Part shown: piece after piece, positions 990-15,703 of the stretch
How positions within the stretch are numbered: the first letter of the stretch is position 1
How the letters are laid out: each line of letters starts with the position of its first letter
Origin: Clostridia bacterium
Lineage (GTDB): Bacteria; Bacillota; Clostridia; Christensenellales; Aristaeellaceae
Direction of reading: 5' to 3'
NCBI GenBank assembly: GCA_017404985.1
Contig: JAFRBK010000036.1
Coordinates: forward strand, 1 to 64,000
Length of the DNA: 64,000 bases
Translations under genes and position numbers: made by a program
The notes under the pieces: model-generated
What the model was told of the DNA's origin: nothing
The model's input: only the letters and a program-made list of their open reading frames with translations
The model's database searches: none

Positions 990-1007
990 GGTTGACCTCC
1001 TTTGGTA

Positions 1008-1115
1008 TCAATATAAGCCCGGATTACCTCTTCTTACGTCAGGTGTGTTCCCATTTCGTACGGCGGCAATAAGTGCATCTGTAGTAATTCTTTGTCCTCC
1101 TTGCTGAGTGAGCAT
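1008..1115 (-). CDS. Possible 35-residue peptide upstream of the GG-leader gene
   Basis: A frame starting MLTQQGGQRITTDALIAAVR on the minus strand ends 18 bases before the ATG of the zinc-ribbon peptide gene. An AAGGA stretch precedes its ATG by a few bases. The length and position would suit a co-transcribed small peptide, but no family is recognised and the frame may be chance. Confidence 0.2.
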   Translation of the reverse strand: MLTQQGGQRITTDALIAAVRNGNTPDVRRGNPGLY

Positions 1116-1490
1116 CTATCCTTGTTATTTGCTGTTCCGAAGTTTTTTATCGGAACAATATTATATACGCATATTTTTGCCAGATGGCAGTTCTCAGCTA
1201 AAATATTTTTTTCTCCCTGGTCCGAGGGGAACGGTGGTCCGGAGGGGACGGTTCTTTCCGGACCACTGGTCCGCCCGGGACGCACCTTCGCCCAAAAGTG
1301 GTCCGGAAGGGACGGGTGGTCCGGAGGGGACGGTTCTTTCCGGACCACTGGGACGGTGGTCCGGAAGGGACGGTTCTTCCCGGACCAAATCATTTCCGCG
1401 GATATGATAGGCTATGGCGCACAGAAACAACACGATCCCGTTGTCACTGGCCCCAGATTGCATAAGCATCCAGGTTTTTTTGCAGAACTG
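1116..1490. other. Gene-free stretch holding palindromes and the first repeat cluster
   Basis: No convincing gene lies here. It contains an isolated palindrome (TGTTCCGA at 1133-1140, TCGGAACA at 1150-1157), an AT-rich segment at about 1155-1215, and then the cluster of 31-bp palindromic units described separately. Frames crossing the repeats encode only Gly/Arg/Pro-rich translations of the repeat itself. Confidence 0.6.
1235..1387. repeat. Cluster A of the 31-bp palindromic repeat (three units)
   Basis: Three near-identical units occur at 1235-1265, 1317-1347 and 1357-1387. Each has 9-bp arms TGGTCCGGA and TCCGGACCA around a 13-nt loop GGGGACGGTTCTT; the third has two changed bases. Between the first and second unit lies a spacer beginning TGGTCCGCCCGGGACGCACC, which recurs in cluster B at 5555. 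The cluster lies downstream of sbcC. The form suggests REP-like or MITE-like hairpin elements rather than simple terminators, since there is no T-run. Confidence 0.8.
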
Positions 1491-1518
1491 AAAAAGCAGC
1501 AGGCACGTAGCCCGCTGC
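1491..1518 (-). terminator. Terminator of the sbcDC operon
   Basis: On the minus strand a 9-bp stem (GCAGCGGGC / GCCTGCTGC, with one G-T pair) is followed by TTTTT. It sits 23 bases beyond the sbcC stop. Confidence 0.65.
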
Positions 1519-1540
1519 TGAAAGAAATCTTTACCAAAAG

Positions 1541-4309
1541 TCAAACCTCAATCGGGGGGATCCTGCTTCCGCCGCCGGGACACTTTTTAACAACAATCTG
1601 CCTGTCTATCACACGCCGGAGCTCCGCCACATGGGAGATGATTCCAATCAGGCGGTTCGTTTCCGACAGGCTGTTCAATGCCTTCATTGCCTGCTGAAGG
1701 GTCTCCTCGTCCAGGGATCCGAAGCCTTCATCCACAAACATTGTATCCAGCCGGATTCCGCCGGCGCTCATCTGAATCTCCTCGGACATTCCCAGCGCCA
1801 GGCTGAGGGAAGCAATGAACGATTCTCCGCCGGACAGGGACTTTACACTGCGGATGGTTCCATTCGTGTGGTCCACCACATCCAGGTCCAGCCCGCTCTG
1901 TGTCCTGTTATCATCATTGGTTTCCCGCCGTTTCAGATCATACTTGCCGCCGCTCATCTGCACCAGGTGCACGTTTGCCCGGCGCAGGATCCTGTCAAGG
2001 AAGGTTGTCTGGATCCATGTTTCAAACATGACGTGGTCTTTACCTTTCAGTGTTCCGTTCGCAGTGTCCGAAAGGGAGGTTGCCAGTTTCCACTTCCGGT
2101 CGATCTCAGCCAGTTCATTCGAAACTGTGCTGAGGTTTTTAAGCACATCGCCATTTGTGGCAATCCTTGCCTGGACAGATTCCCGGATTCCCGAAATCTC
2201 CTGTTTCTTTGTATTGAGGCCATCCCTCTCAGTTGTAACGGCTTCCAGATCCTTCACTTCATCTTCCTGCAGAAGGTTCTCCGCCTGTTTCATCTGCCCT
2301 TCCAGGCTCGAAATTTCCTTTTCACAGTCCTCCCTGGCTTTCTGTGCATCTGCCAGCTTTTGCTTCCTTTGCTTAATCTCCTGGTCCAATGCTTCTGCTG
2401 CCGCGCTGGCTTTCCCATGGTCCGGATAGCTCAGCTTGGCCTGCTGCTCCTCGATATGCTTTTTCTGTTCCTGCAGCCGGCTTTCTTCATTTCCAAATGC
2501 AAGCTCAGCAGCATTCAGCTCCTGGGATTTCCTTTGCAATTCATTGTCTTTTTCCGGGATCTGCTGCTCCAGCTGGGTTCTGCGGGATTTCTTTGTTTTT
2601 TCAGTATCAAGCTGCCCGGCGATATCTTCAAGCTCGCTTTTTATTTCGGCCAGCTTATCCTCCGTCTGCGGGAAAACAGCTTCTTCTTCATAGGCTCCAA
2701 GCAGTTCTTCCGCCTGCTCCCGAATATTCTTCAGGGCATGGTCAAGATTCGTTTTTTCAGAACCGGCTTCTCTGCTTGCTGTATTCGCCTTCGTTTGTTC
2801 ACGTTGCGCCTGTTTTTCGGCATCTTCCACTTTTTTCAGGTCTGGCGCATCCGATGGCTTAATCGCCTTGTGCGGATGGTCGAGTGATCCGCAAACGGGG
2901 CAGCGTTTCCCCGGTTCAAGGCCCTCGGCCAGAATTCCCGCCTGGTTATCATTATATCGTCTGCGTAACTCCTCTGCCTCCCTGCGGGCATTTTCCGCAT
3001 TTTCCATTGCCTTGATATATTGATCCTGGGCGTCTTTGCTTTTCCTCCTGATCTCAGGAAGCTCATACAGCGCGTTTTTCAGCGTTCCCAATTTTCGCTG
3101 TTCTTCTTTCAGTTTTCCCTCTCTTAACTGCAGATTGGCGCTGTGGTCTGTTGTATCTTTCAGGCTTTCCTGTTCCTGGCGGAGTAATTTCAGGTCCTTT
3201 TCCAGACTCTCTTTTTCATCTTTCAGCTGCCCGATTTTATTTTTCCTCTGTTGCTGGGCCTTTTCCGCCTTTGCAATGTCCGAACGCCGCCGGTCCAGCG
3301 CTTCGTATTCCCTGAGCTCATCACGGATCCTCGCAAGTTCAGCGCTTTTCTGCTCGGTTTCTTTCGCGCGGTCCTTCTCCCTTTCCAGAGCTTCTTCAAG
3401 GGGCTTTAATGCTTCCTGTTTTATTTTCCTTTCCGCAGTGGCTTTTTCCAGGTCTTCCCTGGCTTTTTTCTGGTTCTCCGCTTTTCCGATAATCTGGTTC
3501 AGTTCCCCAATCCGTTTCTCCAGTTTCCCCTCCTCTTCAACCAGGGCGTCCCGCTGTGTCCGGTCCCGGGCAAGGATCTGGTTGATGACATCGGCAGCCT
3601 GCTCTGCCAGCATTTCGCCGTCTCTGGCTTTTTTCGCTTCGATTTCCAGCGGGTCATTCTCCGGGCAGGCAATCCGCTTCATGTGAATCTGGATATCGCC
3701 ATTTCTCCGGTTGCGCTCGGCCTCAATGTTCCGGGCTTCCTCTTTCAGCCTGTCCTGGAACCCCTGGTAAATATGTGTCCGGAATATTTCCCGGAAATGC
3801 GCCCTTCTGTCCCTGGTATCTTCAAGAAGGATTTTCAGGAACTCTCCCTGGGCGATCATGGCAATCTGGCAGAACTGTTCCCGGTTGACGCCCAGAATCT
3901 CCGTGATTGTTTTATTGATTTCCTTTTCCTTTTTCACGATCCGGCCATCCGGCAGGTGAAGCTCAGCATCCGCAGAAACAGGCACGTCTCCGGATCCCTT
4001 CAGCTTCCGGCGTATATGGTCCATGGTTCTCCTGACCGTATAATTCCTGCCGCTGTATTCAAAAGTAAGCTCAACCCCGGGCACTGCATACTTATCCGCG
4101 TACTTGGACTTGAGCATGGCCGGGTCTCTGTTCTGCCCGCTGGCTTTTCCGTACAGGGCAAAGATGATCGCATCAAAAATCGTTGTCTTCCCTGCCCCGG
4201 TATCCCCCGTGATCAGATACAGGCCGCTTTTCCCCAGTTTTTCAAAGTCAATCGTTTCTTTTCCTGCATAGGGCCCGAAGGCAGACATCTCCAATTTCAA
4301 CGGTCTCAT
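1541..4309 (-). CDS. sbcC: Exonuclease subunit SbcC (Rad50-like ATPase)
   Basis: SbcC is the SMC-like ATPase partner of SbcD. The complex opens DNA hairpins and degrades palindromic or double-strand ends. The 922-residue protein shows an N-terminal Walker A (GDTGAGKT, 35-42), long coiled-coil arms, a zinc hook (CPVCGSLDHP, near 470), and a C-terminal ABC signature (SLSGGESF) with Walker B (MFVDEGFGSLDEE). It is somewhat shorter than the usual roughly 1,000 residues, with the difference in the coiled coil. Its ATG overlaps the sbcD stop by four bases, so the two are translationally coupled. The operon lies between two clusters of hairpin-forming repeats, which are potential substrates for this enzyme; that link is inference. 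Confidence 0.95.
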   Translation of the reverse strand: MRPLKLEMSAFGPYAGKETIDFEKLGKSGLYLITGDTGAGKTTIFDAIIFALYGKASGQNRDPAMLKSKYADKYAVPGVELTFEYSGRNYTVRRTMDHIRRKLKGSGDVPVSADAELHLPDGRIVKKEKEINKTITEILGVNREQFCQIAMIAQGEFLKILLEDTRDRRAHFREIFRTHIYQGFQDRLKEEARNIEAERNRRNGDIQIHMKRIACPENDPLEIEAKKARDGEMLAEQAADVINQILARDRTQRDALVEEEGKLEKRIGELNQIIGKAENQKKAREDLEKATAERKIKQEALKPLEEALEREKDRAKETEQKSAELARIRDELREYEALDRRRSDIAKAEKAQQQRKNKIGQLKDEKESLEKDLKLLRQEQESLKDTTDHSANLQLREGKLKEEQRKLGTLKNALYELPEIRRKSKDAQDQYIKAMENAENARREAEELRRRYNDNQAGILAEGLEPGKRCPVCGSLDHPHKAIKPSDAPDLKKVEDAEKQAQREQTKANTASREAGSEKTNLDHALKNIREQAEELLGAYEEEAVFPQTEDKLAEIKSELEDIAGQLDTEKTKKSRRTQLEQQIPEKDNELQRKSQELNAAELAFGNEESRLQEQKKHIEEQQAKLSYPDHGKASAAAEALDQEIKQRKQKLADAQKAREDCEKEISSLEGQMKQAENLLQEDEVKDLEAVTTERDGLNTKKQEISGIRESVQARIATNGDVLKNLSTVSNELAEIDRKWKLATSLSDTANGTLKGKDHVMFETWIQTTFLDRILRRANVHLVQMSGGKYDLKRRETNDDNRTQSGLDLDVVDHTNGTIRSVKSLSGGESFIASLSLALGMSEEIQMSAGGIRLDTMFVDEGFGSLDEETLQQAMKALNSLSETNRLIGIISHVAELRRVIDRQIVVKKCPGGGSRIPPIEV

Positions 4310-5451
4310 GCTTTCCCCTCCTTCAGCCCTTCCAGGATTTCTTCAGCAAAGGACCTCTGCTCATCGCTCAGCGGCTGGCCGTTCTGCTTCTCGAAAAACT
4401 CGTTGAAAAGTTCGATCTCGCTCTTGTGCTCTATGTCCCCGGCGCCGCCCACATCCGAAGAAGCCTGGGTTCGCTGGTTGTCATAGTCAATTTTCATAAT
4501 GTTCGGATAGATCGTCCGCATTCGTGCCATCGCATCCGGAACATCATCTTCATCTGTCAGGACCACATGCAGGTAATCATCCGTTGCGGTACCCTCCCAG
4601 GTTTTCTTCAGCATCAGTTCATCATATGTTCCGCGGATCTCCCGCATATCATGCACAGGCTTCAGCGGAATCGTCCGGATTTCCACATTGCCCTTTTCCT
4701 TCAGCTCCACCACAGTCAACGATTTAATATGGTCCTTTTCTGAGAAGGAATACTTAATGGGCGTCCCGCAGTAGCGGATGGTTTCCCGTCCGATATGCTG
4801 CGGCCCATGGAGGTGGCCCAGGGCTACGTAATCGAACTGGTCGAACACGGAAGCATCCACATTGTCCAGCCCTCCGACAGACACATCCTCCGATTCAGAC
4901 CTCGTCGCACCGGTAACAAACTGATGCGCTACCAGGATGTTTCTGTCAGATGGGTCCATGTTCATGTGCACAATTACCTGCCGGACCGCGTCCGTGTAGT
5001 CCGAAACGCTTTCTTCCGGATAGGCATGTCGCACATCCACCGGCTTAACAAAGGGAAGCATCCAGATTTTGGCTTCCCCATACTCATCCGCCAGCGGGCA
5101 CGGCTCAATACTGCCCGAAAAAACAGGAGACACGTGAATGCCGCCCAGTTGGAAAAACTCCCCGCCGAAGGCAACCCGCTCAGCAGAATCATGGTTCCCG
5201 TATATCATATAAACCTTCTGCTTCATAGCCGCCAGCCGTTTGAGAAAATCATCAAGCAACGAAACAGCCTCTGCGGAAGGAACCGCCTTATCATACACAT
5301 CCCCCGCGATGATCACGCCATCCGGCTTTTCCTGTCCGATGATCCTGAGAATTTCCAGGAGGATATACTGCTGGTCCTCCTGCATTGGAAACTCGTTCAC
5401 TCTCTTTCCAAGATGCAAATCCGACAGATGCATGAGTTTCAAGTCCGCCAT
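4306..5451 (-). CDS. sbcD: Exonuclease subunit SbcD (Mre11-like nuclease)
   Basis: This is the metallophosphoesterase nuclease subunit of SbcCD. The motifs expected of Mre11/SbcD are visible: HLSDLHLGK near the N-terminus, GDVYD, YGNHDS and GHLHGPQ, which together bind two metal ions. Length (381 residues) is normal. The ATG at 5451 gives MADLKLMHLSDLHLGK. A TTG at 5442 would give MKLMHLSDLHLGK, closer to the common family start, with GGGAG nine bases before it, so the true start may be 5442. A TATAAT-like -10 on the minus strand lies at 5490-5495. The gene is first in the sbcDC operon. Confidence 0.95.
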   Translation of the reverse strand: MADLKLMHLSDLHLGKRVNEFPMQEDQQYILLEILRIIGQEKPDGVIIAGDVYDKAVPSAEAVSLLDDFLKRLAAMKQKVYMIYGNHDSAERVAFGGEFFQLGGIHVSPVFSGSIEPCPLADEYGEAKIWMLPFVKPVDVRHAYPEESVSDYTDAVRQVIVHMNMDPSDRNILVAHQFVTGATRSESEDVSVGGLDNVDASVFDQFDYVALGHLHGPQHIGRETIRYCGTPIKYSFSEKDHIKSLTVVELKEKGNVEIRTIPLKPVHDMREIRGTYDELMLKKTWEGTATDDYLHVVLTDEDDVPDAMARMRTIYPNIMKIDYDNQRTQASSDVGGAGDIEHKSEIELFNEFFEKQNGQPLSDEQRSFAEEILEGLKEGKA

Positions 5452-5523
5452 CTCCCTTCCCTGAATTTGCTTTTATTTTCCATGCTCTCATTATACACAA
5501 AATAGCAGTGCAGGAAAACCACA

Positions 5524-5705
5524 TGGTCCGGAGGGGACGGTTCTTTCCGGACCATGGTCCGCCCGGGACGCACCTTCACCCCAAAAGTGGTCCGGAGGGG
5601 ACGGTCCGGAGGGGACGGTTCTTTCCGGACCACTAGTCCGAGGAGAGACGCTCCTTTCCGAATCATCCGGAACCATGATTAACGGTTCCGAATTGTTCCA
5701 GCCTC
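5524..5705. repeat. Cluster B of the palindromic repeat, upstream of sbcD and rpn
   Basis: A perfect 31-bp unit lies at 5524-5554 and another full unit at 5603-5632. Between them are the same spacer as in cluster A (TGGTCCGCCCGGGACGCACC) and a partial unit at 5588-5604. A second module follows from about 5660, CATCCGGAACCAT then ACGGTTCCG, and it recurs in cluster C. The bases from 5452 to 5796 hold no gene: they contain the sbcD -10, this cluster and the rpn promoter, with divergent transcription on each side. Confidence 0.8.
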
Positions 5706-5741
5706 ACCAGCCGAAGATCCTTTCTTGTTTTCCCGGCCATG

Positions 5742-5770
5742 TTGAAAGAGCATGACGGCTGTGATACAAT
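5742..5770 (+). promoter_or_regulatory. Promoter of the rpn-family gene
   Basis: TTGAAA (5742-5747), a 17-base spacer and TACAAT (5765-5770) form a good sigma-A promoter. It overlaps the in-frame ATG at 5752, which argues that translation starts further down at 5797. Confidence 0.65.
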
Positions 5771-5796
5771 ATATACGGATCAAGGAGGTGAATATA

Positions 5797-6690
5797 TTGG
5801 CGGCAGTGACGGAAGAGTACAAGGATCGATTATTCTGCTTTATCTTTGGTTCCAAAGAACATAAGGACTGGACGCTGAGCCTTTATAATGCGGTTAACAA
5901 TACCTCCTATACTGATCCGGAAGCGATCACCATTGCGACGCTGACGCAGGTGTTGTATATGGGAATGCAGGATGATGTGGCCCTGCTGATTTTCGATGAA
6001 TTGAATCTGTATGAGCACCAGTCGTCCTATAATCCCAATATGCCGCTTCGCCTCATGCAGTATACCAGCAATATCTATGAGACGCTGATTACCCTGCAGA
6101 AGAAAAACAAGTACGGTTCAAAGCTGATTCCGCTCCCGGTTCCGAAATTGGTCACATTTTATAACGGAATGGCCGATAAACCGGAAGAACTGATCCTTCA
6201 TCTGTCGGACTCTTTTCCTGAGGACAAGCGGGACGAATCGGACATTCAGGTTCAAGTACGAATGATCAATATCAACCCCGGACATAATCTGAGCATGGTA
6301 ACAAAATGTAAACCGTTGGAGGAATACACCTGGACAGTAGCAGCTATACGTGAGAACAGGAAACAGATGGATATTGAAAGGGCGATTGACAAAGCACTCG
6401 ACGACATGCCGGATGATTTTGAAATCAAACCATTCCTGAGCGCTAACAGAGTGGGGGTGAAGAAAATGCTGTTGACAGAGTATAACGAAACAGAAACGAT
6501 GGAACTTTTTAAGGAAGAAGGCCGTGCGGAAGGCCGCGCAGAAGGAAAAGATGAAGCAAACATTTCAAATATTCGAAAGATCATGGCCAAAATGAAGCTT
6601 TCCGCAAAGAAAGCTATGGACTTTATGGATATCTCTTCCGAAGACCAGCAGCGTTATGCCCCATTGCTGAAGGAGCATCCCGAGCTCTGA
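5797..6690 (+). CDS. Rpn-family recombination-promoting nuclease / putative transposase (PD-(D/E)XK)
   Basis: The roughly 297-residue protein fits the Rpn/PDDEXK-transposase family. It has an N-terminal DRLFCFIFGSKEHKDWTLSLYNAV, a DDVALLIFDELNLYEHQSS segment holding the expected E-x-Q metal-binding motif, and a C-terminal EGRAEGRAEGKDE linker leading to a short helical tail (KLSAKKAMDFMDI). RpnA-type proteins are DNA endonucleases that raise RecA-independent recombination, and are often multicopy. I chose the TTG at 5797 because a perfect AAGGAGGTG precedes it and a promoter covers the upstream ATG at 5752. The gene stands alone and is flanked on both sides by related palindromic repeats (clusters B and C). 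Nothing else in the element resembles a transposon. Confidence 0.85.
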   Translation: MAAVTEEYKDRLFCFIFGSKEHKDWTLSLYNAVNNTSYTDPEAITIATLTQVLYMGMQDDVALLIFDELNLYEHQSSYNPNMPLRLMQYTSNIYETLITLQKKNKYGSKLIPLPVPKLVTFYNGMADKPEELILHLSDSFPEDKRDESDIQVQVRMININPGHNLSMVTKCKPLEEYTWTVAAIRENRKQMDIERAIDKALDDMPDDFEIKPFLSANRVGVKKMLLTEYNETETMELFKEEGRAEGRAEGKDEANISNIRKIMAKMKLSAKKAMDFMDISSEDQQRYAPLLKEHPEL

Positions 6691-6752
6691 GTCTCTGATA
6701 ATGTGGAAAGAGGAATGCCCAAAACCGTAACAAACTATGGTCTGGGCATTAT

Positions 6753-6825
6753 TGGTCCGGAGGGGACGGTCCTTTCCGGACCATCCGGAACCATAGCCGA
6801 CGGTTCCGGATGGTCCCGGCCTAAA
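6753..6825. repeat. Cluster C of the palindromic repeat, downstream of rpn
   Basis: A 31-bp unit at 6753-6783 (same 9-bp arms, loop with one changed base) is followed at once by CATCCGGAACCAT, then ACGGTTCCGGATGGTCCCGG. The latter is itself an inverted repeat (TCCGGAACC / GGTTCCGGA) and matches the second module of cluster B. The rpn-family gene therefore sits between two copies of the same composite. Confidence 0.8.
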
Positions 6826-6955
6826 CAGACAGACAATGGAAACCGGCCCGGAAAGATCCGGCTTTTCTACTTTGTGCAGATTCCGGAAGACTTCATACGC
6901 AGATCCGAATTGAGATTCATTTCTTTACTGCTGTTCTTTCTCTCCACCCGTAAAT

Positions 6956-7011
6956 ATCATGCTACCAAAATGGATGCGGAAAAAACCCCGCATCCGTTTT
7001 GGTAGCATGAT
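6956..7011. repeat. Long near-perfect inverted repeat (24-bp arms)
   Basis: Arms 6956-6979 and 6988-7011 pair over 24 positions with one G-T mismatch (ATCATGCTACCAAAA...GGATGCGG against its complement), separated by eight bases (AAAAAACC). There is no T-run on either side, so it is unlike an ordinary terminator. It could be the fused ends of a decayed element or a structured RNA. The interval 6691-7063 holds no gene apart from this and cluster C. Confidence 0.75.
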
Positions 7012-7063
7012 GATGTCGGAAGACAGAAGATGAAGGCCATACGATAGAATGGAGGAAAAAGGC

Positions 7064-7294
7064 ATGAATTCAGTACAGCGGGAAAGAGGCATCCAGAGGT
7101 TTCTTCGGAAGGTTGTCCTTGGACAGCCGGTTCAGAAGTTTGTGACCGCCGGCAGCATGAACTGCCGGCAGATGATTCAGGAGTCGAAGGCCCGGAAGCG
7201 TTGCATCCCCGGCGACAACGAGATCCTTGCCTCCGCCGAATATGATCTGACCCGCGAAATCCTGTGCGGCTTCTGGGATATCCGTGCAGCCTGA
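7064..7294 (+). CDS. Possible 76-residue hypothetical protein
   Basis: A plus-strand frame starts at an ATG preceded by GGAGGAAAAAGGC, a good ribosome-binding site, and reads MNSVQRERGIQRFLRKVVLG onward with no recognised domain. An internal hairpin (CCGGCAG...CTGCCGG, 7148-7167) lies within it. It ends about 100 bases before a strong terminator. It may be a real small gene or the remnant of a longer one. If it is rejected, 6691-7472 is a gene-free stretch. Confidence 0.3.
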   Translation: MNSVQRERGIQRFLRKVVLGQPVQKFVTAGSMNCRQMIQESKARKRCIPGDNEILASAEYDLTREILCGFWDIRAA

Positions 7295-7395
7295 ACAGAC
7301 ACAGAAAGAGCGTCCACAGACGGACGATCCTTTCGATAAAAGAACAGGAAGGCCATTAAAGTTTGGGATGTTTTGGGTATGTTCCTTGTCCATAG

Positions 7396-7438
7396 AAAAA
7401 GGGCTGCCTCGCTTTTGCTTCGTGAGGCAGCCCCTTTT
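7396..7438. terminator. Bidirectional Rho-independent terminator
   Basis: GGGCTGCCTC (7401-7410) pairs with GAGGCAGCCC (7424-7433). There is an A-run before and a T-run after, so it can end transcripts from both sides, including the minus-strand operon ending at 7473. Confidence 0.8.
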
Positions 7439-7472
7439 GGGACAACCGTACTGTCCGGCGGCAACCGTTGAC

Positions 7473-7847
7473 TCAATGATACTTGTAATGTGTTGTTTCA
7501 ACGAAATCTTCTTCCCGGGCAGCCTCTGAAGATTCTTCTGCCTTTTCATCCGGTTCAGTTTTTCCCTCGTTTCTCTTTTTGCGATTGAAGTACAAGACCA
7601 GGCCTGCAGCGATACCGAGTGCAACGCTTGCAGAAGGTGGAATCCAGCCAGGATAAACCAGAGGGGTGGTAAACACGAAATAGAGGGCCTCTCCGAATGA
7701 AGCGCCGCTGTTCATCGCCACCACAATGAACAGGCCAATATTATAGATACAATAAACTGCGAACACTCCGAGAAAAATCCGGAGCCCGCGATGAAAGCCC
7801 CTGCTGCTGAACAACCGTCTGCAGAAACCGGCAACACGCTGAAGCAT
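7473..7847 (-). CDS. Small membrane protein, twin of the one at 13,586-13,960
   Basis: The 124-residue product has a basic N-terminus (MLQRVAGFCRRLF), two clear membrane segments (about 22-45 and 72-86), then a charged EEK-rich tail ending THYKYH. A second gene 6 kb away encodes a protein of identical length, more than half identical by eye without gaps and with the same THYKYH end. No known domain is recognised. It follows the DUF2779 gene by 22 bases, so it is probably the last gene of that operon, and a strong terminator lies downstream. Function unknown. Confidence 0.7.
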   Translation of the reverse strand: MLQRVAGFCRRLFSSRGFHRGLRIFLGVFAVYCIYNIGLFIVVAMNSGASFGEALYFVFTTPLVYPGWIPPSASVALGIAAGLVLYFNRKKRNEGKTEPDEKAEESSEAAREEDFVETTHYKYH

Positions 7848-7869
7848 TACGAAGATTTTCTCCCTTTGT

Positions 7870-9363
7870 TTATATGGTGACAGCTTTTTTCAGTGCTTCC
7901 CATACCTTGACCATCGCCAGCGTGTCAAGCCTGCAGTAAGCCAGAAGGTTTTCCCTGGCCTTTGCCTGCTCCTCCGGCGGCATAGACTGGATCCGGGGAA
8001 ACACGCTCATGGCTTCGCTGCCGTTGTGGACTCCCTCCAGCCCGCGGTAGTCCAGTTCGGGATCACCCGGGCAGATTGCCGGCAGCACGCTCTTAATCGA
8101 AAAGCTCCCGCCCATTTCTTTATTATAGTACATTCCTTTCTGGAACGGCGTCAGAAGATCCACGATATTCGCTTCGATTGCGAGAAGATGTTCCGAAAGG
8201 TCTGGAAACGTGGCCGCCAGTTCTTTCAGCCTTGTGCATTCGAACGCTTTGTTAAACGCGGTCACACAGACGTTCGCCGGGATATCCCGGCACAGGGCTT
8301 CCGCGATCGCCCGTCGGGGATCCGTTCCGCTCTCCGCCAGGAACTCCCTGTGTTTCAGTTCTCCGCCCTCATGTTCGATATAGTGCAGGGAATACTGGAA
8401 CGGGATCTGCGCAAACGGATGCGTTCCCACACAGAACGGGATCGCAGGCTGCATTGTCTCAAAGTCCAGGAAATAAAGCGGATACGTCAGGCCGGAGAGG
8501 AATTCCCGGATTTCATTCACATCAGCGTATGTCCCCCGTTCCCTCAGCGCGAAATCGACCTGCCTTTTCTGAACCACGTTCTTAATCACCCCTGCCTTTT
8601 CCAGTTCTTCAAAGCTGACCAGCCCCTGCTGATAGTACTCCAGCTTTTTCTTCATCGCCAGCCTGTACAGCTCAAACACATTGGGAGAAGGCAGATCCCG
8701 GGTACAGTATTGGAAATAAACACAGTCTTTGCATCCCTCCGCCAGTTCCATATGCGGTTCCTGGTCCGACGCAAGCACCTGCTCTGCAGTTCGAAGAATC
8801 TCCGGAACATTCTGCTGCTCCCGCGATGCCTGCTCCCAGAGATCATTGATTTGAAAGAAACCATTCAGATCCAGGCCTTCCGGCCCCAATACATAGGAAG
8901 TATCAATGCAGACGAGGAAGACACCCGTGACGTTTACTCCGCAGTGTTCCAGCACATATTTCTGGTATGAAACGTCCGCTATATATTTATCCTGCAGACC
9001 GTCGGAAGAACTTTTGACTTCATAGATGGCCCATCCATCTTCGTTCCGGCGGAGCAGGTCCACCGCGCAGTACAGGCCTTCATAGGAGAAGGATGCTTCA
9101 CAGATCACGGAAGTCCCCCGCTCCATCTCCTCCCTGGTATTCTCAATCATCCGCGGCAGATCCAGGGAGCCATCCTCTTTCAAAGCTGTCACATTCACAA
9201 ATGGCCCAAAGAGCCCCCTGGCAAGATCTCCCACTTCGTTTCCCGTACGGAAGCGGGCAAGCGTATTTTCATCCTGCAGAACCAGTTCCGGATGATTTTG
9301 GGTGATCCAGGCGCCCTTCCGGCAGGACCAGACACGGACATAGCTGGTTTTGGACAGATACAC
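7870..9363 (-). CDS. DUF2779 protein: Cas4-like PD-(D/E)XK domain plus DnaQ-like exonuclease domain
   Basis: The 497-residue protein has two nuclease-like halves. The N-terminal half has the Cas4/RecB-type layout: an early cysteine (C14), an acidic residue in AVDLL, an E-x-K motif in IYEVKSSSD (near 115), and a cysteine trio in CKDCVYFQYC (near 210) that could hold an iron-sulfur cluster. The C-terminal half has DnaQ/RNase-H-like motifs: YFLDFET, a middle NKAFECTRL and YCRLDTLAM near the end. This matches the uncharacterised DUF2779 family. It follows a small hypothetical gene (39-base gap) and precedes the twin membrane protein. Its biological role is unknown; DNA repair or defence is plausible but unproven. 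Confidence 0.8.
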   Translation of the reverse strand: MYLSKTSYVRVWSCRKGAWITQNHPELVLQDENTLARFRTGNEVGDLARGLFGPFVNVTALKEDGSLDLPRMIENTREEMERGTSVICEASFSYEGLYCAVDLLRRNEDGWAIYEVKSSSDGLQDKYIADVSYQKYVLEHCGVNVTGVFLVCIDTSYVLGPEGLDLNGFFQINDLWEQASREQQNVPEILRTAEQVLASDQEPHMELAEGCKDCVYFQYCTRDLPSPNVFELYRLAMKKKLEYYQQGLVSFEELEKAGVIKNVVQKRQVDFALRERGTYADVNEIREFLSGLTYPLYFLDFETMQPAIPFCVGTHPFAQIPFQYSLHYIEHEGGELKHREFLAESGTDPRRAIAEALCRDIPANVCVTAFNKAFECTRLKELAATFPDLSEHLLAIEANIVDLLTPFQKGMYYNKEMGGSFSIKSVLPAICPGDPELDYRGLEGVHNGSEAMSVFPRIQSMPPEEQAKARENLLAYCRLDTLAMVKVWEALKKAVTI

Positions 9364-9402
9364 GATGCCTTCCGCTCCCTTCCTTATCGTCTCAGGAATA
9401 CT

Positions 9403-9657
9403 TCATTCCCGGCGGCATCCTTTGCTTTCGTTCTGCCCGGCCGGATGGGCCAGTACATAATACTTCCCGTCTGCAGTCCTGTGAATGATGCCCATCTCCG
9501 CAAGCTGAGAAGTGTATTCCTGGAATGAATCGGGGTTGATCAGATCTGTTTCAGGAAGCTTTTTCGCCGTCTCCGGTGATACTGCACCCGCTTTTCTGAG
9601 TGCATTTTTGATCAGTTCCCGGCGCATTGACATTGCTGCAGATGTGAAGACCGCCAT
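9403..9657 (-). CDS. Small hypothetical protein, possibly a winged-helix fold
   Basis: The 84-residue product begins MAVFTSAAMSMRRELIKNAL and ends in a region reading QLAEMGIIHRTADGKYYVLA, which looks like the recognition helix and wing of a small helix-turn-helix protein. The ATG at 9657 follows AAGGGATGATTCC; an upstream in-frame ATG at 9699 lacks such a site. It is the first gene of the probable operon with the DUF2779 gene. The fold assignment comes from pattern only. Confidence 0.55.
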   Translation of the reverse strand: MAVFTSAAMSMRRELIKNALRKAGAVSPETAKKLPETDLINPDSFQEYTSQLAEMGIIHRTADGKYYVLAHPAGQNESKGCRRE

Positions 9658-9790
9658 GGAATCATCCCTTCCCCATTCGTTTTTGCTGCCCAAACACACG
9701 GAAAGCGTCTGTTTCCCTTTGTCCGCGTCGGGAGCATTTTCATTTTATCGTAAACCACCCCGTTTTCGCAAGTGAATCCGAAACAGTGAA

Positions 9791-10615
9791 TCAGCTCCGC
9801 TGCGGTGCATTGGCCTGGCCGGCTTTCACCAGTCCCTGAAACCTGTCCACCACGGCCAGCATGTCCTCCGGCAGACGCTTTCTGCATGCATCCACCATCT
9901 CGGGAGGCACCCTGTAGAAAGCCTCCGCAATGCCCCCGGCGATGCAGGTCAGCGTATCGCAGTCTCCGCCCAGGGATACCGCAGTGCGGATCACATCCTC
10001 GAAATCCGTTCCCTCCAGGAAAGCGGTCATCGCTTCCGGCACGGTTTTCTGGCAGCTCTCGATGTGATGGTATCCGGGCCGGATCTCATCGCACGTCCTG
10101 CTCAGATCATAGCCGAATTCCTGAATCACGTACGCTTTGATCTCTTCCTTGCTGCAACCGGTCCGGGCCAGGAAAATGGCGCTGGCCGTTGCCTCCGCCC
10201 CCTTGATGCCTTCCGGATGGTTGTGGGTCACTTCTGCGGTCAGCCGGGCCTTCTTCCGGGTTTCCTCCAGCGTGCCGTACAGCCACCCTGCTGCGGACAC
10301 CCGCATCGCAGAGCCGTTTCCGTAACTGCCGTAGGGTTCCGGATTCCCTGAATGCAGCCAGTCATAGAACATGCATCCATATCCCGCATCAGGATACCGT
10401 TTTCCCCACTTCTTCATGGAAGAAACCAGCGTGGCCTTTATCCCCTCATCCGGCATCCCGATACTGTCCATCAGGGCTTCCGCCACAGCGACCGTCATCA
10501 CGGAATCATCCGTGAACATCGTCCCCCGTCCGAAAAGCAGAAACTCCTTCGTCTTGTTTCCCCTGTCGAATTCATACGGCGCCCCAATCATGTCTCCCAT
10601 CAAAGCTCCGATCAT
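9791..10615 (-). CDS. ADP-ribosylglycohydrolase family protein
   Basis: The 274-residue protein has the family's Mg-binding motifs: GDMIGAPYEF near the N-terminus, FTDDSVMTVAVAEAL, and GGDCDTLTCIAGGIAEAFYRVP near the C-terminus. Such enzymes remove ADP-ribose from proteins or nucleic acids, or degrade ADP-ribosylated metabolites. No ADP-ribosyltransferase is nearby, so no toxin-antitoxin pairing of the DarT/DarG or dinitrogenase type is indicated. The ATG at 10615 has GGGAG eight bases upstream. Confidence 0.9.
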   Translation of the reverse strand: MIGALMGDMIGAPYEFDRGNKTKEFLLFGRGTMFTDDSVMTVAVAEALMDSIGMPDEGIKATLVSSMKKWGKRYPDAGYGCMFYDWLHSGNPEPYGSYGNGSAMRVSAAGWLYGTLEETRKKARLTAEVTHNHPEGIKGAEATASAIFLARTGCSKEEIKAYVIQEFGYDLSRTCDEIRPGYHHIESCQKTVPEAMTAFLEGTDFEDVIRTAVSLGGDCDTLTCIAGGIAEAFYRVPPEMVDACRKRLPEDMLAVVDRFQGLVKAGQANAPQRS

Positions 10616-10722
10616 ATGATCATCTCCCTTCCCTTTGATAAACCCAGTATATCAGAAATCAAAAACAGATAAGTCGTCCGCCAGGCGACAAATGCACCCA
10701 ATGCTTTCCTGCCCCCTGGCCA

Positions 10723-11655
10723 TCACAGCGATTTGCACAGCCCGCCCGGCGCCATGGAACAAACCATATACTGCAGCGTCTCATCCGAATAATGGGACCG
10801 CTCCAGGTTCACGACAGCCGCCGGTTTCTTTTCTCCCCGTTCGTCCGCCTTCATCCGCAGATAAATCTTTTTCTCATATATCTGGACGGTTTCGACGGAA
10901 TCCCACGGAATCAGGATCCCCTTGGGGCAAGCCGTATAATACCGGATTCCCGCCCGGTTCATTTCCGCCAGCAGGAACAGGTTCCGGCTCTCCGACACAG
11001 CCCCGCAGGCGCACACCGCCGTGATGATGATATAAATAATTGAAGCAAGCACGACAAATCCGTTGTCCATATAAGGCGACCGGAACATCGCCACCAGAAT
11101 GATCAGCATGAGAGCCTGAATCACGAGCCCCGTCATATATCCATCAAACCGTTTGGGGTTATTCATGCATTTGATCCGCAGCTCCCGGTTTTCTTCCTGT
11201 ATCGCGGCCCCGTCCTCCCGCAGCGCCCGGCGGACAATCTGCCGCGTTACCGCAGGAATCACCAGAAGCGCGGCCAGAAAAGCCCCTGTCAGCGCCAGCC
11301 CATGCTTTCTGATCCACTCCATGCCGACGCCCTGCTTTCCGCCTGCTGCGACGCCCCACATTACACCGGCAACCATCAGCCCGCAAACCAGGAACGTAAA
11401 GGTAAACTGCAGAATAATACCCCATCGGGTCACTTTTTCCACATCTTCAAGCTTCCCGGTCCTCTCCGCTTTCTCCCGCAACGCTTTCATTCCTTCTTTT
11501 CCCCTGTAGGAAAATGAAAGCAAAACGGAGATAATGCCCAGCAGCACCGGCGGCCCTGCAACCCAAATCAGAAACATTCCTGTTCGATGCCTCCTTTTCA
11601 CTTCCGGTTCCCGGAAAGGAATCTCCCCGAGTCCTTTCATCTGTTTAGACGGCAC
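10723..11655 (-). CDS. Hypothetical multi-pass membrane protein
   Basis: The 310-residue protein has about five hydrophobic segments (near 27-48, 78-100, 115-135, 172-190 and 200-220) and a C-terminal soluble part (roughly 225-310). That part contains YYTACPKGILIPWDSVETVQIYEKKIYLRMK and resembles a small PH-like beta domain of the kind found in YcxB-type membrane proteins. The start appears to be a GTG, with GGGAG seven bases upstream. The gene stands alone. No function can be assigned. Confidence 0.65.
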   Translation of the reverse strand: MPSKQMKGLGEIPFREPEVKRRHRTGMFLIWVAGPPVLLGIISVLLSFSYRGKEGMKALREKAERTGKLEDVEKVTRWGIILQFTFTFLVCGLMVAGVMWGVAAGGKQGVGMEWIRKHGLALTGAFLAALLVIPAVTRQIVRRALREDGAAIQEENRELRIKCMNNPKRFDGYMTGLVIQALMLIILVAMFRSPYMDNGFVVLASIIYIIITAVCACGAVSESRNLFLLAEMNRAGIRYYTACPKGILIPWDSVETVQIYEKKIYLRMKADERGEKKPAAVVNLERSHYSDETLQYMVCSMAPGGLCKSL

Positions 11656-11726
11656 GAACCTGCTCCCGGTTCCTCCAATTTTGTCACGCCCGGATCATGT
11701 GTCGCGCACATGCAAGATTTCCGTAA

Positions 11727-12029
11727 TCACGCAGCTTCCCTTCCGCAGGGAACCGCTGCCTCAGCAGCCGCATGCTTCGGTTCCGGCTCCGCTTCCGTTT
11801 CCAGGTGCTTCCGCCAGGCATACCCCAGCACGCGCAGAAAGCCCTTCTCGGTCCGGTTCGCCTCAGGGTCATCCATCCAGTTCCAGAAGAACAGCGGCGT
11901 GCAGTCATACCCCATGGCAATCTCTGGCAGCGCTTTCCGGCTGTACGGGCATCCCCAATCCAGAAATTCCTTCGTGAGCTCAGCTGCAACCTCTTTCCAG
12001 GTCATTCCCATCATTTCAGCATCCATCAT
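11727..12029 (-). CDS. Hypothetical protein, 100 residues
   Basis: The product begins MMDAEMMGMTWKEVAAELTK and contains a conserved-looking hydrophobic stretch GYDCTPLFFWNWMDDPEANR, then an Ala/Glu/Pro-rich tail. I chose the ATG at 12029 because AGGAGG lies seven bases upstream. No family is recognised. It is preceded by the terminator of the aminopeptidase gene and followed by the GTG-started membrane protein gene, so it may be transcribed with either or alone. Confidence 0.45.
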   Translation of the reverse strand: MMDAEMMGMTWKEVAAELTKEFLDWGCPYSRKALPEIAMGYDCTPLFFWNWMDDPEANRTEKGFLRVLGYAWRKHLETEAEPEPKHAAAEAAVPCGREAA

Positions 12030-12097
12030 CCGGCGCCTCCTGCACATATTTGCCGGGCCTTTCAATCCCCTTCTTTTCCCCCGGCATATTCAATATA

Positions 12098-12130
12098 CCA
12101 AAAGAGATGCGGGAAATTTCCCGCATCTCT
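12098..12130 (-). terminator. Terminator of the M29 aminopeptidase gene
   Basis: A perfect palindrome (AGAGATGCGGGAAA / TTTCCCGCATCTCT, 12103-12130) is followed on the minus strand by TTTT. Confidence 0.8.
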
Positions 12131-12197
12131 CCGGGCAGCGGAGAAAGCCTGGCAGAATGCACTGGCGTTTCCCCTTTGCGGTCCTGTGAATGATAGG

Positions 12198-13421
12198 TCA
12201 GAACGCCCACCGGCCCCGGCGGAAGATCGGAACAGTCCTTCCGTCACGGGTAATCGCGTCGATGTCCAGCCCCTCATAGCCGATCATGAAATCCTCATGG
12301 TTCATGGAGTCATTGATGCCCATGGACCGGCACTCATCCAGGGTTTTGTTTTCATATCCCTTAATCGTATCGGCAAAGCCCATGCCCAGTGCCAGATGGC
12401 AGGCGGCATTCTCGTCGAACAGGGTCTCGTAAAACAGCAGCCCGGACTCGGAGATCGGGGAGTTCACCGGCACCAGGGCGCACTCGCCCAGATAGGCAGC
12501 GCCCTCGTCCATGGCAATCATCTGCTCCAGCAGCGCCTGGTTCTTTTCGGCTTTGACCTCGACGGCCTTGCCGTTTTCGAAGCGGACGGAGAAGTTTTCG
12601 ATCAGCTGGCCCTGGTAGGACAGGGGCTTCGTGGCATAAACGATGCCTTCGGCTTTGCCGCGCATCGGAGAGGTGAAGCACTCCTCAGTGGGAATGTTGG
12701 GATTGAAGTAGATGCCCTTCAGGCTGGTGTCACCGCCGCCCTTGAACTGGCCCTCCGGGATCATGCCGACGGTAAGGTCGGTGCCGTTGTCGCCCCGATA
12801 GCGCAGCTCAGCGATACCCAGGCTGTTGAGATAGTCGCAGCGGCTGCTCAGGTCCCTGTTGTGTGCCTCCCACGCTGCCACAGGGTCATCGGTCACCCGG
12901 GAGGTGAAAAGGATCATCTCCCACAGCTTTTCCATGGCTTTTTTCTTCGGAAGGCCTGGGAAGACCTTCCTGGCCCAGGCCGCACCTGGAACCGCCGCGA
13001 TGCACCACTGGTATTTGTTTTCCATCGTATCCCAGTAGGGTTTGACAACGGGCCAGCGCTTCTGCTCAGCCCTGGCCAGCTTTTTCTGGTTGATGCCTTT
13101 CAGTCCGTCGGGGTCCCTGGAAACCAGGTAGATCCGGCAGGGAAGGGTATCCGTATAGTGCTGGAGGCGGGCTTTTTCCCATTCCTCGACCTTGGCCATG
13201 GTGGTGACGGCCTGGTGGCGGACATGCAGCTTTTCCAGGGGCTGGTAATCGAACTCCACCTTCACCTTCCTGGCGCCGGCTTTGTAGCATTCGTCCGCCA
13301 GCAGTTCCACAAATTTCGGCTGGTCCAGGTCACATGCGATGATCACGTCCTGTCCCTTCTGGATATTGGCGCCGACGCGGGCGATCAGGCGGGCATAATT
13401 ACGAAGAATGCTGATTTTCAT
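12198..13421 (-). CDS. Aminopeptidase, M29 (AmpS/PepS) family
   Basis: This 407-residue protein is a typical M29 metallo-aminopeptidase, cytoplasmic and metal-dependent, releasing N-terminal amino acids from peptides. Family metal ligands are visible in the C-terminal half: the Glu of IPTEECFTSP, the Glu of MDEGAAYLGE, the His of ENAACHLALG, and the His-Asp of NHEDFMIGYEGLDI. The N-terminal half has the usual VGANIQKGQDVIIACD. AGGAG precedes the ATG. It forms a single-gene unit with its own terminator. The first part of the intergenic stretch upstream (13,422-13,585) shows only short direct repeats ending in CTCAATGATA. Confidence 0.92.
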   Translation of the reverse strand: MKISILRNYARLIARVGANIQKGQDVIIACDLDQPKFVELLADECYKAGARKVKVEFDYQPLEKLHVRHQAVTTMAKVEEWEKARLQHYTDTLPCRIYLVSRDPDGLKGINQKKLARAEQKRWPVVKPYWDTMENKYQWCIAAVPGAAWARKVFPGLPKKKAMEKLWEMILFTSRVTDDPVAAWEAHNRDLSSRCDYLNSLGIAELRYRGDNGTDLTVGMIPEGQFKGGGDTSLKGIYFNPNIPTEECFTSPMRGKAEGIVYATKPLSYQGQLIENFSVRFENGKAVEVKAEKNQALLEQMIAMDEGAAYLGECALVPVNSPISESGLLFYETLFDENAACHLALGMGFADTIKGYENKTLDECRSMGINDSMNHEDFMIGYEGLDIDAITRDGRTVPIFRRGRWAF

Positions 13422-13585
13422 GTTGGTTTTCTCCTGTCAGTATATTTTGATCCGTTTTCCCTTAGTCCATATTTTCCGTTTCCTGTTTCACCCTGTTCTC
13501 AAAAGAACGCCTCCGCTTCCCATGGTTTTCGGTTCCTTCGCTGGCCTTCTCCTCAATGATAGCAGTTCCTTCGCCGGTCTTCTTC

Positions 13586-13960
13586 TCAATGATACTTGTA
13601 GTGTGTCGGTTCAATGAATTCTTCTTCCCCGGCTGCATTGGAAGCTTCTTCTTCCTTTTCATCCGCTTCAGTGCTTTCCCTGCTTTTCTTTTTGCGATTG
13701 AAGTACCAGATCAGGCCTGCGACGATCCCGATCGCAAAGCTTGCGGGAAACGGAATCCGGGCAGGATAGGTCAGCGGTATGGTAAACAGGAAACGAAGGG
13801 CTTCCCAGAAAGAAATGCCGACGTTCATCACCGCGATAAAGTACCGGATGATACTATACAGGCTCATAGCAGCATACACCACGAGAAAAATCCGGACCCC
13901 GCGAAGAAAGCCCTTGCTGGTGAATAACCGTCGGAGAAACCCGGCAATACGTTGAAACAT
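13586..13960 (-). CDS. Small membrane protein, twin of the one at 7,473-7,847
   Basis: This 124-residue product has the same layout as its twin: basic start MFQRIAGFLRRLFTSKGF, two membrane segments, YFNRKKK, an acidic tail and the identical final THYKYH. The ribosome-binding region (AAGGGAGAAAA) is also shared. A 31-bp palindromic repeat sits just upstream. The strict length conservation and shared C-terminal motif suggest a recent duplication under selection. The function is unknown. Confidence 0.7.
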   Translation of the reverse strand: MFQRIAGFLRRLFTSKGFLRGVRIFLVVYAAMSLYSIIRYFIAVMNVGISFWEALRFLFTIPLTYPARIPFPASFAIGIVAGLIWYFNRKKKSRESTEADEKEEEASNAAGEEEFIEPTHYKYH

Positions 13961-13992
13961 GACAATGCTTTTTCTCCCTTGGTTTTATTAAG

Positions 13993-14023
13993 TGGTCCGG
14001 AGGGGACGGTTCTTTCCGGACCA
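13993..14023. repeat. Isolated copy D of the 31-bp palindromic repeat
   Basis: This is a perfect copy of the unit found in clusters A and B (arms TGGTCCGGA / TCCGGACCA). It lies between the amidohydrolase stop and the start of the second twin membrane protein, about 7 kb from cluster C. Confidence 0.85.
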
Positions 14024-14083
14024 TTCACGGAAACCGGAAATAATAGGTTGTCCGGCAGGCGGCAAAATCAACAGACGCGCGTT

Positions 14084-15703
14084 TCACGCATTCACAGGAT
14101 ACACACGCCGATTCCCCAGATAGCATGAATGGACCGCAATGGCGTGCAGCCGTTCCGGCTCCGTCTCAAACGGATTCCCCTCCAGCACCGTGAAATCCGC
14201 CAGATATCCCGGAGCAATCCGCCCCTTGCAGCCTTCTTCAAAGCTTGCTTCCGCCCCGCGGACCGTAAAGCTGTCCAGCGCCTCCTGAATGCTGAAGGCT
14301 TCCTCCGGCAGATAGGGCCCGGTTCCGTCCATGGACGTGCGTGTCACCGCGCACTGAATCCCACGCATCACATCCGCCGGTTCGACGGGGCAGTCCGATC
14401 CGTTGGAAACCGAAACCCCGCGCTTCATCAGGGTTTTCCACCGGTAGCTGCTTTCCGCCCGTTCCGCGCCGACCCTGCTTTCCACAATATGGTTGTCGTA
14501 GTCCAGGAAGATCGTCTGTGCATACACATGCAGTTTCATCCGCGCGATCCGCTCCAGCTGGTCAGGCCGCGTAATCTGGCAGTGCACGATCCCATGCCGG
14601 TGGTCCTCCCGGGGATGGCTTTTCAGCGCCTCCTCCATCGCGTCGAGCACCCGGTCCAGGCAGGCGTCCCCGATCGCATGGACCGCAATCTGCATCCCAT
14701 GCGCGTTGGCATACCGGACCATTTCTTTCATTTCTTCGTCGCTGAACAGCGAAAAGCCACAGGTATCCGGCCGGTCCGCGTACGGCCGGGACAGGTGCGC
14801 GGTATAGCTGCCGAGCGAGCCGTCGCCCACCATCTTCAAAGGCCCGATGCGGAAGAGCGCGTCGCCCTTCCCGGTACAGTTCCCCGCCCCGATAAAGCCC
14901 TCCAGCTCCGAAAGCGCGGCAAAATTCGCCTGTTCGTACACGCGGACCGTCAGCTCCCCGCTATCCGCCAGCTCCCGGAAAACCTCGTTCACCGTCTCCC
15001 AGGGCACGCCCCGGAAAACCCCGTAATCGTCGGATTGCACACTGGTCACGCCGTATGCGCTCAGCGTTCTGCAGGCAAGGCGGACCATGTCCTTCAGTTC
15101 CTCCCGGCCCGGGAGCGGAATAAACGGATTCAGCAGGTCAATCGCATTGTCATACAGCCTTCCGTCCGGTTCCCCGTTTTCCATCCCGATCCGGCCGCCG
15201 TCAGGGGAAACGGTGTTCCCGGTAATCCCGGCGATCTCCAGCACGCGGGAATTGACGACACAGCAGTGCCCGCAGGTGCGGATTACCATGATCGGAATCT
15301 GATCCGAAACGGCATCCAGGTCCGCCCGGTTCGGCATGCGGTTCACATCCGCAAAGTAATCCTGGTTCCATCCGCGCCCCAGCAGCCACTGCCCCTCCCG
15401 CGGCGGATGCTCCGCGGCAAACTGCCGCAGGCACCCGAGCATCGCGGCCAGGCTGTCCGTATGCCGCTGCAGCGGAGCGCACCGCAAGGTCCGCCCCAGG
15501 CTGAGCAGATGCATATGCGAGTCATTGAACCCGGGGCAGACAAACCGCCCTTCCATGTCCACCCTCACGGTATCCCCATCCGCCATCGCAAGGATTTCTT
15601 CATTCGGCCCCACGGCCCTGAAAACCCCGCCTTCAACCAAAAAAGCCTGCTGTAGCTCCCTCTCCCCGGTATAAACCCGGGCATTATAATATACCGACTT
15701 CAT
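14084..15703 (-). CDS. YtcJ-like amidohydrolase
   Basis: The 539-residue protein belongs to the amidohydrolase superfamily branch of YtcJ, AepA and N-substituted formamide deformylase. The metal-site motifs are present: FNDSHMHLLSLG (HxH), a KMVGDGSLGSYTA segment, HAIGDACLD, IVHCQ and NGSDCPVEPADV (the final Asp). The substrate cannot be told from sequence. Although the frame stays open further upstream, I start at the ATG at 15703 because the family begins with this MKSVYYNARVYTGE strand and the upstream part overlaps the HD-domain gene. The gap to that gene is 22 bases, so the two are co-transcribed. Confidence 0.88.
   Translation of the reverse strand: MKSVYYNARVYTGERELQQAFLVEGGVFRAVGPNEEILAMADGDTVRVDMEGRFVCPGFNDSHMHLLSLGRTLRCAPLQRHTDSLAAMLGCLRQFAAEHPPREGQWLLGRGWNQDYFADVNRMPNRADLDAVSDQIPIMVIRTCGHCCVVNSRVLEIAGITGNTVSPDGGRIGMENGEPDGRLYDNAIDLLNPFIPLPGREELKDMVRLACRTLSAYGVTSVQSDDYGVFRGVPWETVNEVFRELADSGELTVRVYEQANFAALSELEGFIGAGNCTGKGDALFRIGPLKMVGDGSLGSYTAHLSRPYADRPDTCGFSLFSDEEMKEMVRYANAHGMQIAVHAIGDACLDRVLDAMEEALKSHPREDHRHGIVHCQITRPDQLERIARMKLHVYAQTIFLDYDNHIVESRVGAERAESSYRWKTLMKRGVSVSNGSDCPVEPADVMRGIQCAVTRTSMDGTGPYLPEEAFSIQEALDSFTVRGAEASFEEGCKGRIAPGYLADFTVLEGNPFETEPERLHAIAVHSCYLGNRRVYPVNA

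Follow-up and report, generated by a model that had tools for sequence, protein, structure and literature searches.

The closest known systems to the repeats described here are the TIRtrons and the GTAG REPs. As presented in the consulted parts of Di Nocera et al. 2013 (PMC3733652), TIRtrons are tyrosine-transposase genes with inverted repeats that share the sequence GGGGWSAS. Neither 'Firmicutes' nor 'Clostridi' turned up when this paper was searched for these words. The same parts of the paper report that REPtrons are absent from some REP hosts, so that a cognate RAYT is not strictly required. In the sections consulted of Quentin et al. 2018 (PMC6006769), the TnpA-Y1 proteins of subclass 2.1, given as Bertels group 1, have an HTH tail and no REP was found for them; this subclass is said to correspond probably to the TIRtrons. 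For the TnpAREP proteins of groups 2 and 3, the excerpted text of PMC8266576 describes foot, stem and loop as being read to differing degrees, with some loop positions essential.

The window, i.e. the whole 64-kb stretch of DNA that was analyzed, contains a 31-bp unit in which a 9-bp stem (TGGTCCGGA/TCCGGACCA) encloses a 13-nt loop (GGGGACGGTTCTT). Matching the 31-mer at up to 3 mismatches gave seven copies, compared to a mean of 0.00 over 100 dinucleotide shuffles, and thereby recovered the three clusters (A, B and C) and the solitary copy (D) that a sequence-only reading of this DNA had reported. The spacer modules that this reading had seen as common to A and B and to B and C were also found, the former with a length of 31 nt and 94% identity, the latter with 64 nt and 78% identity. 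The hairpins, the modules and the genes between them are as follows.

1218..1234, plus strand: partial unit of cluster A (left arm and loop start), read from the sequence; repeat family D2
1235..1265, plus strand: hairpin A1, 0 mismatches, stem TGGTCCGGA/TCCGGACCA, loop GGGGACGGTTCTT (31-mer match, fold)
1267..1297, plus strand: spacer module common to clusters A and B (repeat D16, 94%)
1299..1315, plus strand: partial unit (left arm and loop start), read from the sequence; repeat family D3
1317..1347, plus strand: hairpin A2, exact (31-mer match)
1357..1387, plus strand: hairpin A3, 2 mismatches (31-mer match, fold)
1541-4309, minus strand: sbcC
4306-5451, minus strand: sbcD
5524..5554, plus strand: hairpin B1, exact (31-mer match, fold)
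5555..5585, plus strand: A/B spacer module, copy 2 (repeat D16)
5588..5604, plus strand: partial unit overlapping the start of B2, read from the sequence (repeat analysis)
5602..5632, plus strand: hairpin B2, 1 mismatch (31-mer match)
5647..5710, plus strand: B/C module containing GGAACC...GGTTCC (repeat D5, 78%)
5752-6690, plus strand: rpn-like ORF (Pfam Transposase_31, 23.2 bits, cut-off 21)
6753..6783, plus strand: hairpin C, 1 mismatch, loop variant ending GGTCCTT (31-mer match, fold)
6765..6828, plus strand: B/C module, copy 2, overlapping hairpin C (repeat D5)
13993..14023, plus strand: solitary hairpin D, exact (31-mer match, fold)

All window copies point in the same direction. Single-strand DNA folding predicted a hairpin in each of the five copies tested, three of which are identical in sequence, with z-scores between -2.1 and -4.1. 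The lowest-energy fold places a few weak, mostly G-T pairs within the loop, and in the centroid structure of the exact copies all 13 nt of the loop stay unpaired. The rpn-like ORF scores 24.1 bits with the NCBIfam Rpn model, under its cut-off of 52.1. Further features of the window include a RelB-type antitoxin gene at the start of the contig (10-306, plus strand) and a 24-bp inverted repeat at 6956-7011, with arms 96% complementary and 8 nt between them, unrelated to the 31-bp unit. Two paralogous small proteins of 124 aa, encoded on the minus strand at 7473-7847 and 13586-13960 and sharing a 300-nt repeat (74%), have no Pfam match; some 33 nt separate the gene at 13586-13960 from hairpin D, which is upstream of it.

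The host genome, which is 85% complete and comprises 2.98 Mb on 52 contigs, holds 13 copies of the 31-mer at up to 3 mismatches, seven in the window and six on four further contigs (three on C34, the others on C42, C47 and C50). The exact loop core GGGGACGGTTCTT occurs 14 times and the reversed control 0 times; at up to 1 mismatch, the numbers are 36 and 3, several of the 1-mismatch matches being left out as looking like chance or coding before the 18 element sites were sorted by eye. For six of these eye-sorted sites (on C6, C17, C26, C32, C34 and C50), the nearest contig end is no more than 1.5 kb away, compared to about 5% expected (P=0.0002). The distribution of the 31-mer is uneven, with four of its eight sites within 13 kb in the window region, a concentration to which local duplication may have contributed. 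The copies are thus neither evenly spread over the genome nor, given those on C34, C42, C47 and C50, restricted to the surroundings of rpn and sbcDC. A slightly altered variant of the A/B spacer also recurs in the C34 cluster, so that this spacer is not private to the sbcDC/rpn locus. The C47 copies sit among genes read, by translation alone, as aromatic amino-acid synthesis genes. On the same contig (L078, 2760-3715), a 188-aa gene, XRE-like by translation, is bracketed by inverted hairpin pairs in a manner resembling that of RAYT genes in relatives.

Among 61 genomes searched, the full 31-mer with these arms was found in the host genome only, and the exact GGTCC-stem pattern gave 0 matches in the named genomes, a set that possibly leaves near relatives outside. 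The exact loop GGGGACGGTTCTT was found in 34 of 100 genomes searched, and within the genus 29 of 45 genomes carry it, with 231 copies in all; summed by hand over all 100 genomes, there are 236 exact matches versus 7 for the reversed control. Core counts reach 26 in G017, 17 in G006, 16 in G022 and 14 in G001, and the one-contig genomes G022 and G035 also carry dispersed cores. The common stem varies by genome: AAGACAG in G017, AAGACAC in G006 and G067, TGTGTCAG in G023, GGGAACGA in G030 and GGAACAAA in G062, with TGGTCC, TGAACC and TGGGCC in G011 and two stem kinds in G022. In a survey of 127 loop matches on stretches from 11 genomes, 67 had at least 6 of 8 adjacent positions paired in a fixed register, the matches of G003 being mostly out of it. 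That the GGGGACGGTTCTT loop is the mark of a family, and that the window hairpins belong to this family, is well supported.

Inspection of relatives revealed transposase genes between such hairpins. In G001 and G022, a 249-aa gene with the motif GNHVHLL is bracketed by inverted core hairpins, and in G035 a RAYT is bracketed by core hairpins, one side being rearranged. The 249-aa gene matches Pfam Y1_Tnp, and among NCBIfam models it is nearest to that of the REP-associated tyrosine transposase, whose cut-off it does not reach. All 11 RAYTs in our alignment match Pfam Y1_Tnp and NCBIfam REP_Tyr_transpos (NF047646), with a best E-value of 4.4e-24 and, for two members, scores of 71.5 and 63.3 versus the curated cut-off of 80 bits. 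The only PDB match of the RAYTs at E 0.01 was TnpArep (4er8). Matches of the C-terminal region to HTH models were weak (HTH_7 and HTH_23 in three of 11 each; the best, HTH_IclR at 1.2e-4, in one of 11).

Using the 11-protein alignment, RAYT loci were collected from named genomes, and the best 80 of at least 577 confirmed relatives were analyzed. They come mainly from Clostridia but also, among others, from Coriobacteriaceae, Atopobiaceae, Atribacteria and Acetothermia records. In this set of the best 80 of at least 577, 71 loci carry the core no more than 400 nt away from the gene, with up to 2 mismatches and both orientations allowed; it is found upstream at 61, downstream and inverted at 52, and on both sides at 43, and the reversed core gave 5 matches versus 175 for the core itself. 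The 13-nt loop register is kept in 99 of the 113 hairpins at these loci. A core-blind search, carried out on 79 loci (one of the 80 had flanks that were too short), detected a terminal inverted repeat scoring at least 16 at 51 loci, and 50 of these 51 contain GGGGAC or GGGACGG; the remaining 28 loci had no terminal inverted repeat reaching 16. When the flanks of different loci were swapped, 23 of 79 reached this score, 21 of them via the shared core, and part of the terminal-repeat signal is therefore the core itself. In one record, from Heliorestis acidaminivorans (L278), the terminal inverted repeats of the RAYT are strong and do not contain the GGGGAC core.

Within the genus set, which comprises 47 RAYT genes in 45 stretches (two of them from outside the genus), 34 genes have terminal inverted repeats scoring at least 16 and 13 do not, as counted by hand and without a control. 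These genes were located by tblastn, in place of an earlier regex finder that had caught 17. The loops at the genus RAYTs occur as the variants GGGGACGGTTCTT, GGGACGGTCTTTT, GGGACGGGGTTTTTG and GGGACAGTCCC, and the stems are many. In G022 (L131, around 1048-1893), the inverted repeats that flank a RAYT are long (alignment score 255), and hairpins of the GGGGACTGTCCCC type form part of them.

The pairing of the stems was analyzed on hairpins picked by the core at up to 2 mismatches and by best pairing, as were those of the RAYT loci above. In 62 distinct stems, restricted to the 13-nt register (99 of 113) with one hairpin per distinct left 7-mer, 5.60 of 7 positions pair, compared to 2.81 after shuffling (sd 0.19, with no more than 3.40 in any of 2000 shuffles). 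In an alignment of 29 hairpins (28 upstream hairpins and one window copy), 79.3% of the cells pair versus 48.8% in shuffles, and the covariation score is 0.775, compared to 0.224 after shuffling and no more than 0.271 after sliding; none of 500 shuffles reached the observed value in either case. Pairs in which both partners have changed number nine in the same 29 hairpins, which is not above the shuffles (8.2; 143 of 500). Stems upstream and downstream of one gene agree at 5.77 of 8 positions (n=43), compared to 3.11 between loci. Stem similarity tracks protein similarity weakly over 61 of the 80 RAYTs (Spearman 0.166, with none of 500 permutations as high), and among the 73 pairs of RAYTs that are at least 60% identical, 6 of 7 stem bases are common in 19%. 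By these sequence comparisons, the stems evolve faster than the RAYT protein, and the loop much less; as the hairpins were selected by their core, the constancy of the loop is partly a matter of choice.

Beside the RAYTs of relatives, the loop of the window hairpins recurs in an unchanged register, mostly inverted at the two ends, with stems that are lineage-specific and yet pair. We therefore interpret the repeats of the window as non-autonomous hairpins of the REP/TIR type that belong to a clostridial RAYT family, i.e. to Y1/HUH single-strand DNA transposases with a putative HTH-like tail, and assign this reading a probability of roughly 80%. The comparison with REP/RAYT systems, offered in the sequence-only reading as an analogy in idea, turns out to be more literal than it was meant, with hairpins of the same loop flanking real RAYT genes in relatives.

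The resemblance to TIRtrons/TIRYT, as far as the consulted parts of PMC3733652 describe them, includes tyrosine-transposase genes with inverted repeats (here at 51 of 79 loci), a sequence close to GGGGWSAS, usually GGGGACGG (7 of 8 positions, one departure from the consensus), the dispersal of copies in moderate abundance, the occurrence of dimers and clusters, and the self-complementarity of some repeats. However, the constant 13-nt loop with its covarying stem, seen here, is not part of the TIRtron description in those parts. Judged by motif and length, as distinct from that paper's models, the RAYTs would fall into subclass 2.1, sharing with it a length near 240-250 aa, NHVH, Y---NP and a putative HTH-like C-terminal tail; in contrast to the REP-like sequences reported as absent there (PMC6006769, sections consulted), hairpins are present here at most loci. 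The GTAG REP/RAYT systems (REPtrons, REPINs; E. coli TnpAREP) likewise consist of extragenic palindromes and inverted dimers with a flanked Y1 transposase. According to the same sections of PMC6006769, each canonical RAYT has its own repeat type, a further likeness. GTAG REPs have a 5' GT[AG]G foot and mostly short loops, whereas the present hairpins combine a long conserved loop with a variable stem and no consistent GTAG. None of the seven window copies has the GTAG foot outside the stem that marks a canonical GTAG REP; GTGG is found at the foot of four of the seven, merely via overlap with the TGG of the stem. CGTC REPs are also small palindromes, and the complement of the loop contains CCGTCC; in the excerpted text of PMC3733652 they carry their tag at one end, have loops of 4-5 nt and no transposase, whereas in the present hairpins a RAYT-linked loop of 13 nt encloses the motif. 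With the motif within the loop and the 13-nt register in 99 of 113 hairpins, the repeats do not fit a CGTC REP either. The ends of IS200/IS605 elements are hairpins recognized as single-stranded DNA by Y1 transposases (PMC8266576, parts consulted), but the genes found here, of about 240-340 aa, are RAYT-like and accompanied by dispersed end-only elements. In the literature searched, which left most subscription journals outside its scope, no description of a RAYT hairpin with a constant loop and a covarying stem was found.

In the broad sense of REP/RAYT, the repeats are multicopy extragenic palindromes, and a palindrome of their loop family stands beside a Y1/HUH RAYT in relatives; the TGGTCC-stem palindrome itself was not found beside a RAYT, nor a cognate RAYT in the 85%-complete host genome. 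The Pfam model detected none there, the same search yielding Y1_Tnp in 42 of 100 genomes, and neither did a genus profile up to E 10 (a search run with no positive control). No RAYT with TGGTCC stems was seen among the RAYT loci read by eye. Across 45 genus genomes, core copy number shows no significant relation to whether a RAYT is present (one-sided p=0.18; Spearman 0.21, p=0.16), in a statistic that counts one exact core and includes many incomplete genomes. For the statistics, the genome counts of cores, RAYTs and rpn genes were typed by hand, and RAYTs were separated from IS200 by hand according to score and length. Element sites are enriched at contig ends, and a RAYT flanked by repeats could therefore hide in a gap. 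The copies of the host genome could thus be orphans, or their RAYT could be hidden in an assembly gap; its loss is equally possible.

The position of the hairpins around sbcDC and rpn had suggested another engine, namely that an Rpn-type PD-(D/E)XK nuclease, perhaps together with SbcCD, processes or spreads them instead of a RAYT. We consider this highly unlikely. No second rpn gene was found in the host genome, where the sole match is that of the window, and the sites on C34, C42, C47 and C50 are thus without such a gene beside them, which speaks against the enzyme as the engine. As for SbcCD, the sbcDC orthologues of the five closest-matching genomes (G006, G015, G017, G019 and G027) have neither the element nor rpn within 8.5-11 kb, even though G006 and G017 are core-rich; core copy number is unrelated to SbcD (two-sided p=0.92, 31 genus genomes), and the proposed link finds no backing. 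No clean empty site was obtained, as no other tested window gene was found beside sbcDC in these five genomes. The expectation that copy number follows rpn fared slightly better, with a one-sided p of 0.057 in 45 genomes (0.10 without the host genome), but cores are also abundant in genomes without rpn, among them G017, G006, G022 and G001 with the counts given above. These rpn counts combine another search with one gene found by PF04754, a model too insensitive in the genus (2 of 45 genomes).

In favor of a role for rpn, a core at up to 2 mismatches, in either of two loop variants, lies within 500 bp of four of 17 rpn-like genes, i.e. that of the window and three of the 16 others (these counts rest on cores, as weak stems escaped a score-thresholded hairpin detector). 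The three others are on G003:C5, with cores 166 nt upstream and 30 nt downstream, on G011:C33 and on G011:C53 (97 nt upstream). G000 and G011, both without a detected RAYT, both have TGGTCC-like stems and rpn-adjacent elements. However, the G011 genes are paralogous, which leaves three independent cases, and for the other 13 of the 17, some of them broken or situated at contig ends, there is no core closer than 500 bp. On G003:C5 (L280, 800-4400), the rpn orthologue (73% identical) adjoins a RAYT, and cores of the second loop variant, GGGGACGTATCTT, lie on both sides, in a region that is element-rich over 11 kb. Moreover, the copies around the rpn gene of the window are direct, whereas most RAYTs are flanked by inverted copies. 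The weak association with rpn may arise, for example, through shared insertion hot spots, and shared element-rich regions explain the proximity at least as well as function does. Both rpn and sbcDC are probably bystanders of the hairpins.

Non-mobile extragenic hairpins acting as transcription terminators or mRNA stabilizers would account for the intergenic location after sbcC and after rpn and for the stability of the folds. This is quite unlikely, as the stems in the window are not followed by a T-run, a stem that differs among species around a conserved loop is not what a terminator requires, and the association with RAYT ends is strong (71 of the best 80 of at least 577 loci). An Rfam search of 1000-14200 gave five matches with E-values not exceeding 1; two of the five fall on cluster A, and all are far below the gathering scores. 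The partial units inside the clusters and the six of 18 sites near contig ends might suggest tandem junk produced by chance or by assembly, an explanation of negligible probability given the 0 matches in 100 shuffles and the presence of cores, with a control near 0, in 29 of 45 genus genomes, including the one-contig G022 and G035.

Returning to the clostridial RAYT family, we infer that its transposases mobilize the hairpins. Single-stranded DNA folded into the hairpin would be bound by the RAYT, which would read the loop (chiefly GGGGAC) and require a stem, though no particular one; it would then cut and transfer the hairpin, probably at replication forks. The lineage with TGGTCC stems would have spread in the host species, with local clusters formed by tandem and partial duplication, and its RAYT would later have been lost or would lie in an assembly gap, leaving rpn and sbcDC as neighbors, not engines. 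A more specific version, which we put forward tentatively and with more doubt than conviction, is a loop-addressed RAYT system in which the 12-13-nt loop, GGGGAC above all, is recognized and the stem serves as a fast-evolving barcode separating the repeat populations of RAYT lineages. The TGGTCC-stem populations of two species would then persist without a detected RAYT, via another RAYT or a different nuclease.

The case of rpn and sbcDC illustrates that a striking gene-flanking pattern can come from dispersed repeats without a functional link. Regarding the RAYTs, the hairpins join two loose ends in the published record, RAYT relatives said to be without REPs and inverted repeats that share GGGGWSAS. 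They also yield numerous naturally matched pairs of a RAYT and its hairpin in which evolution has separated the stem from the loop, and which part of the hairpin a Y1 transposase reads is therefore directly testable.
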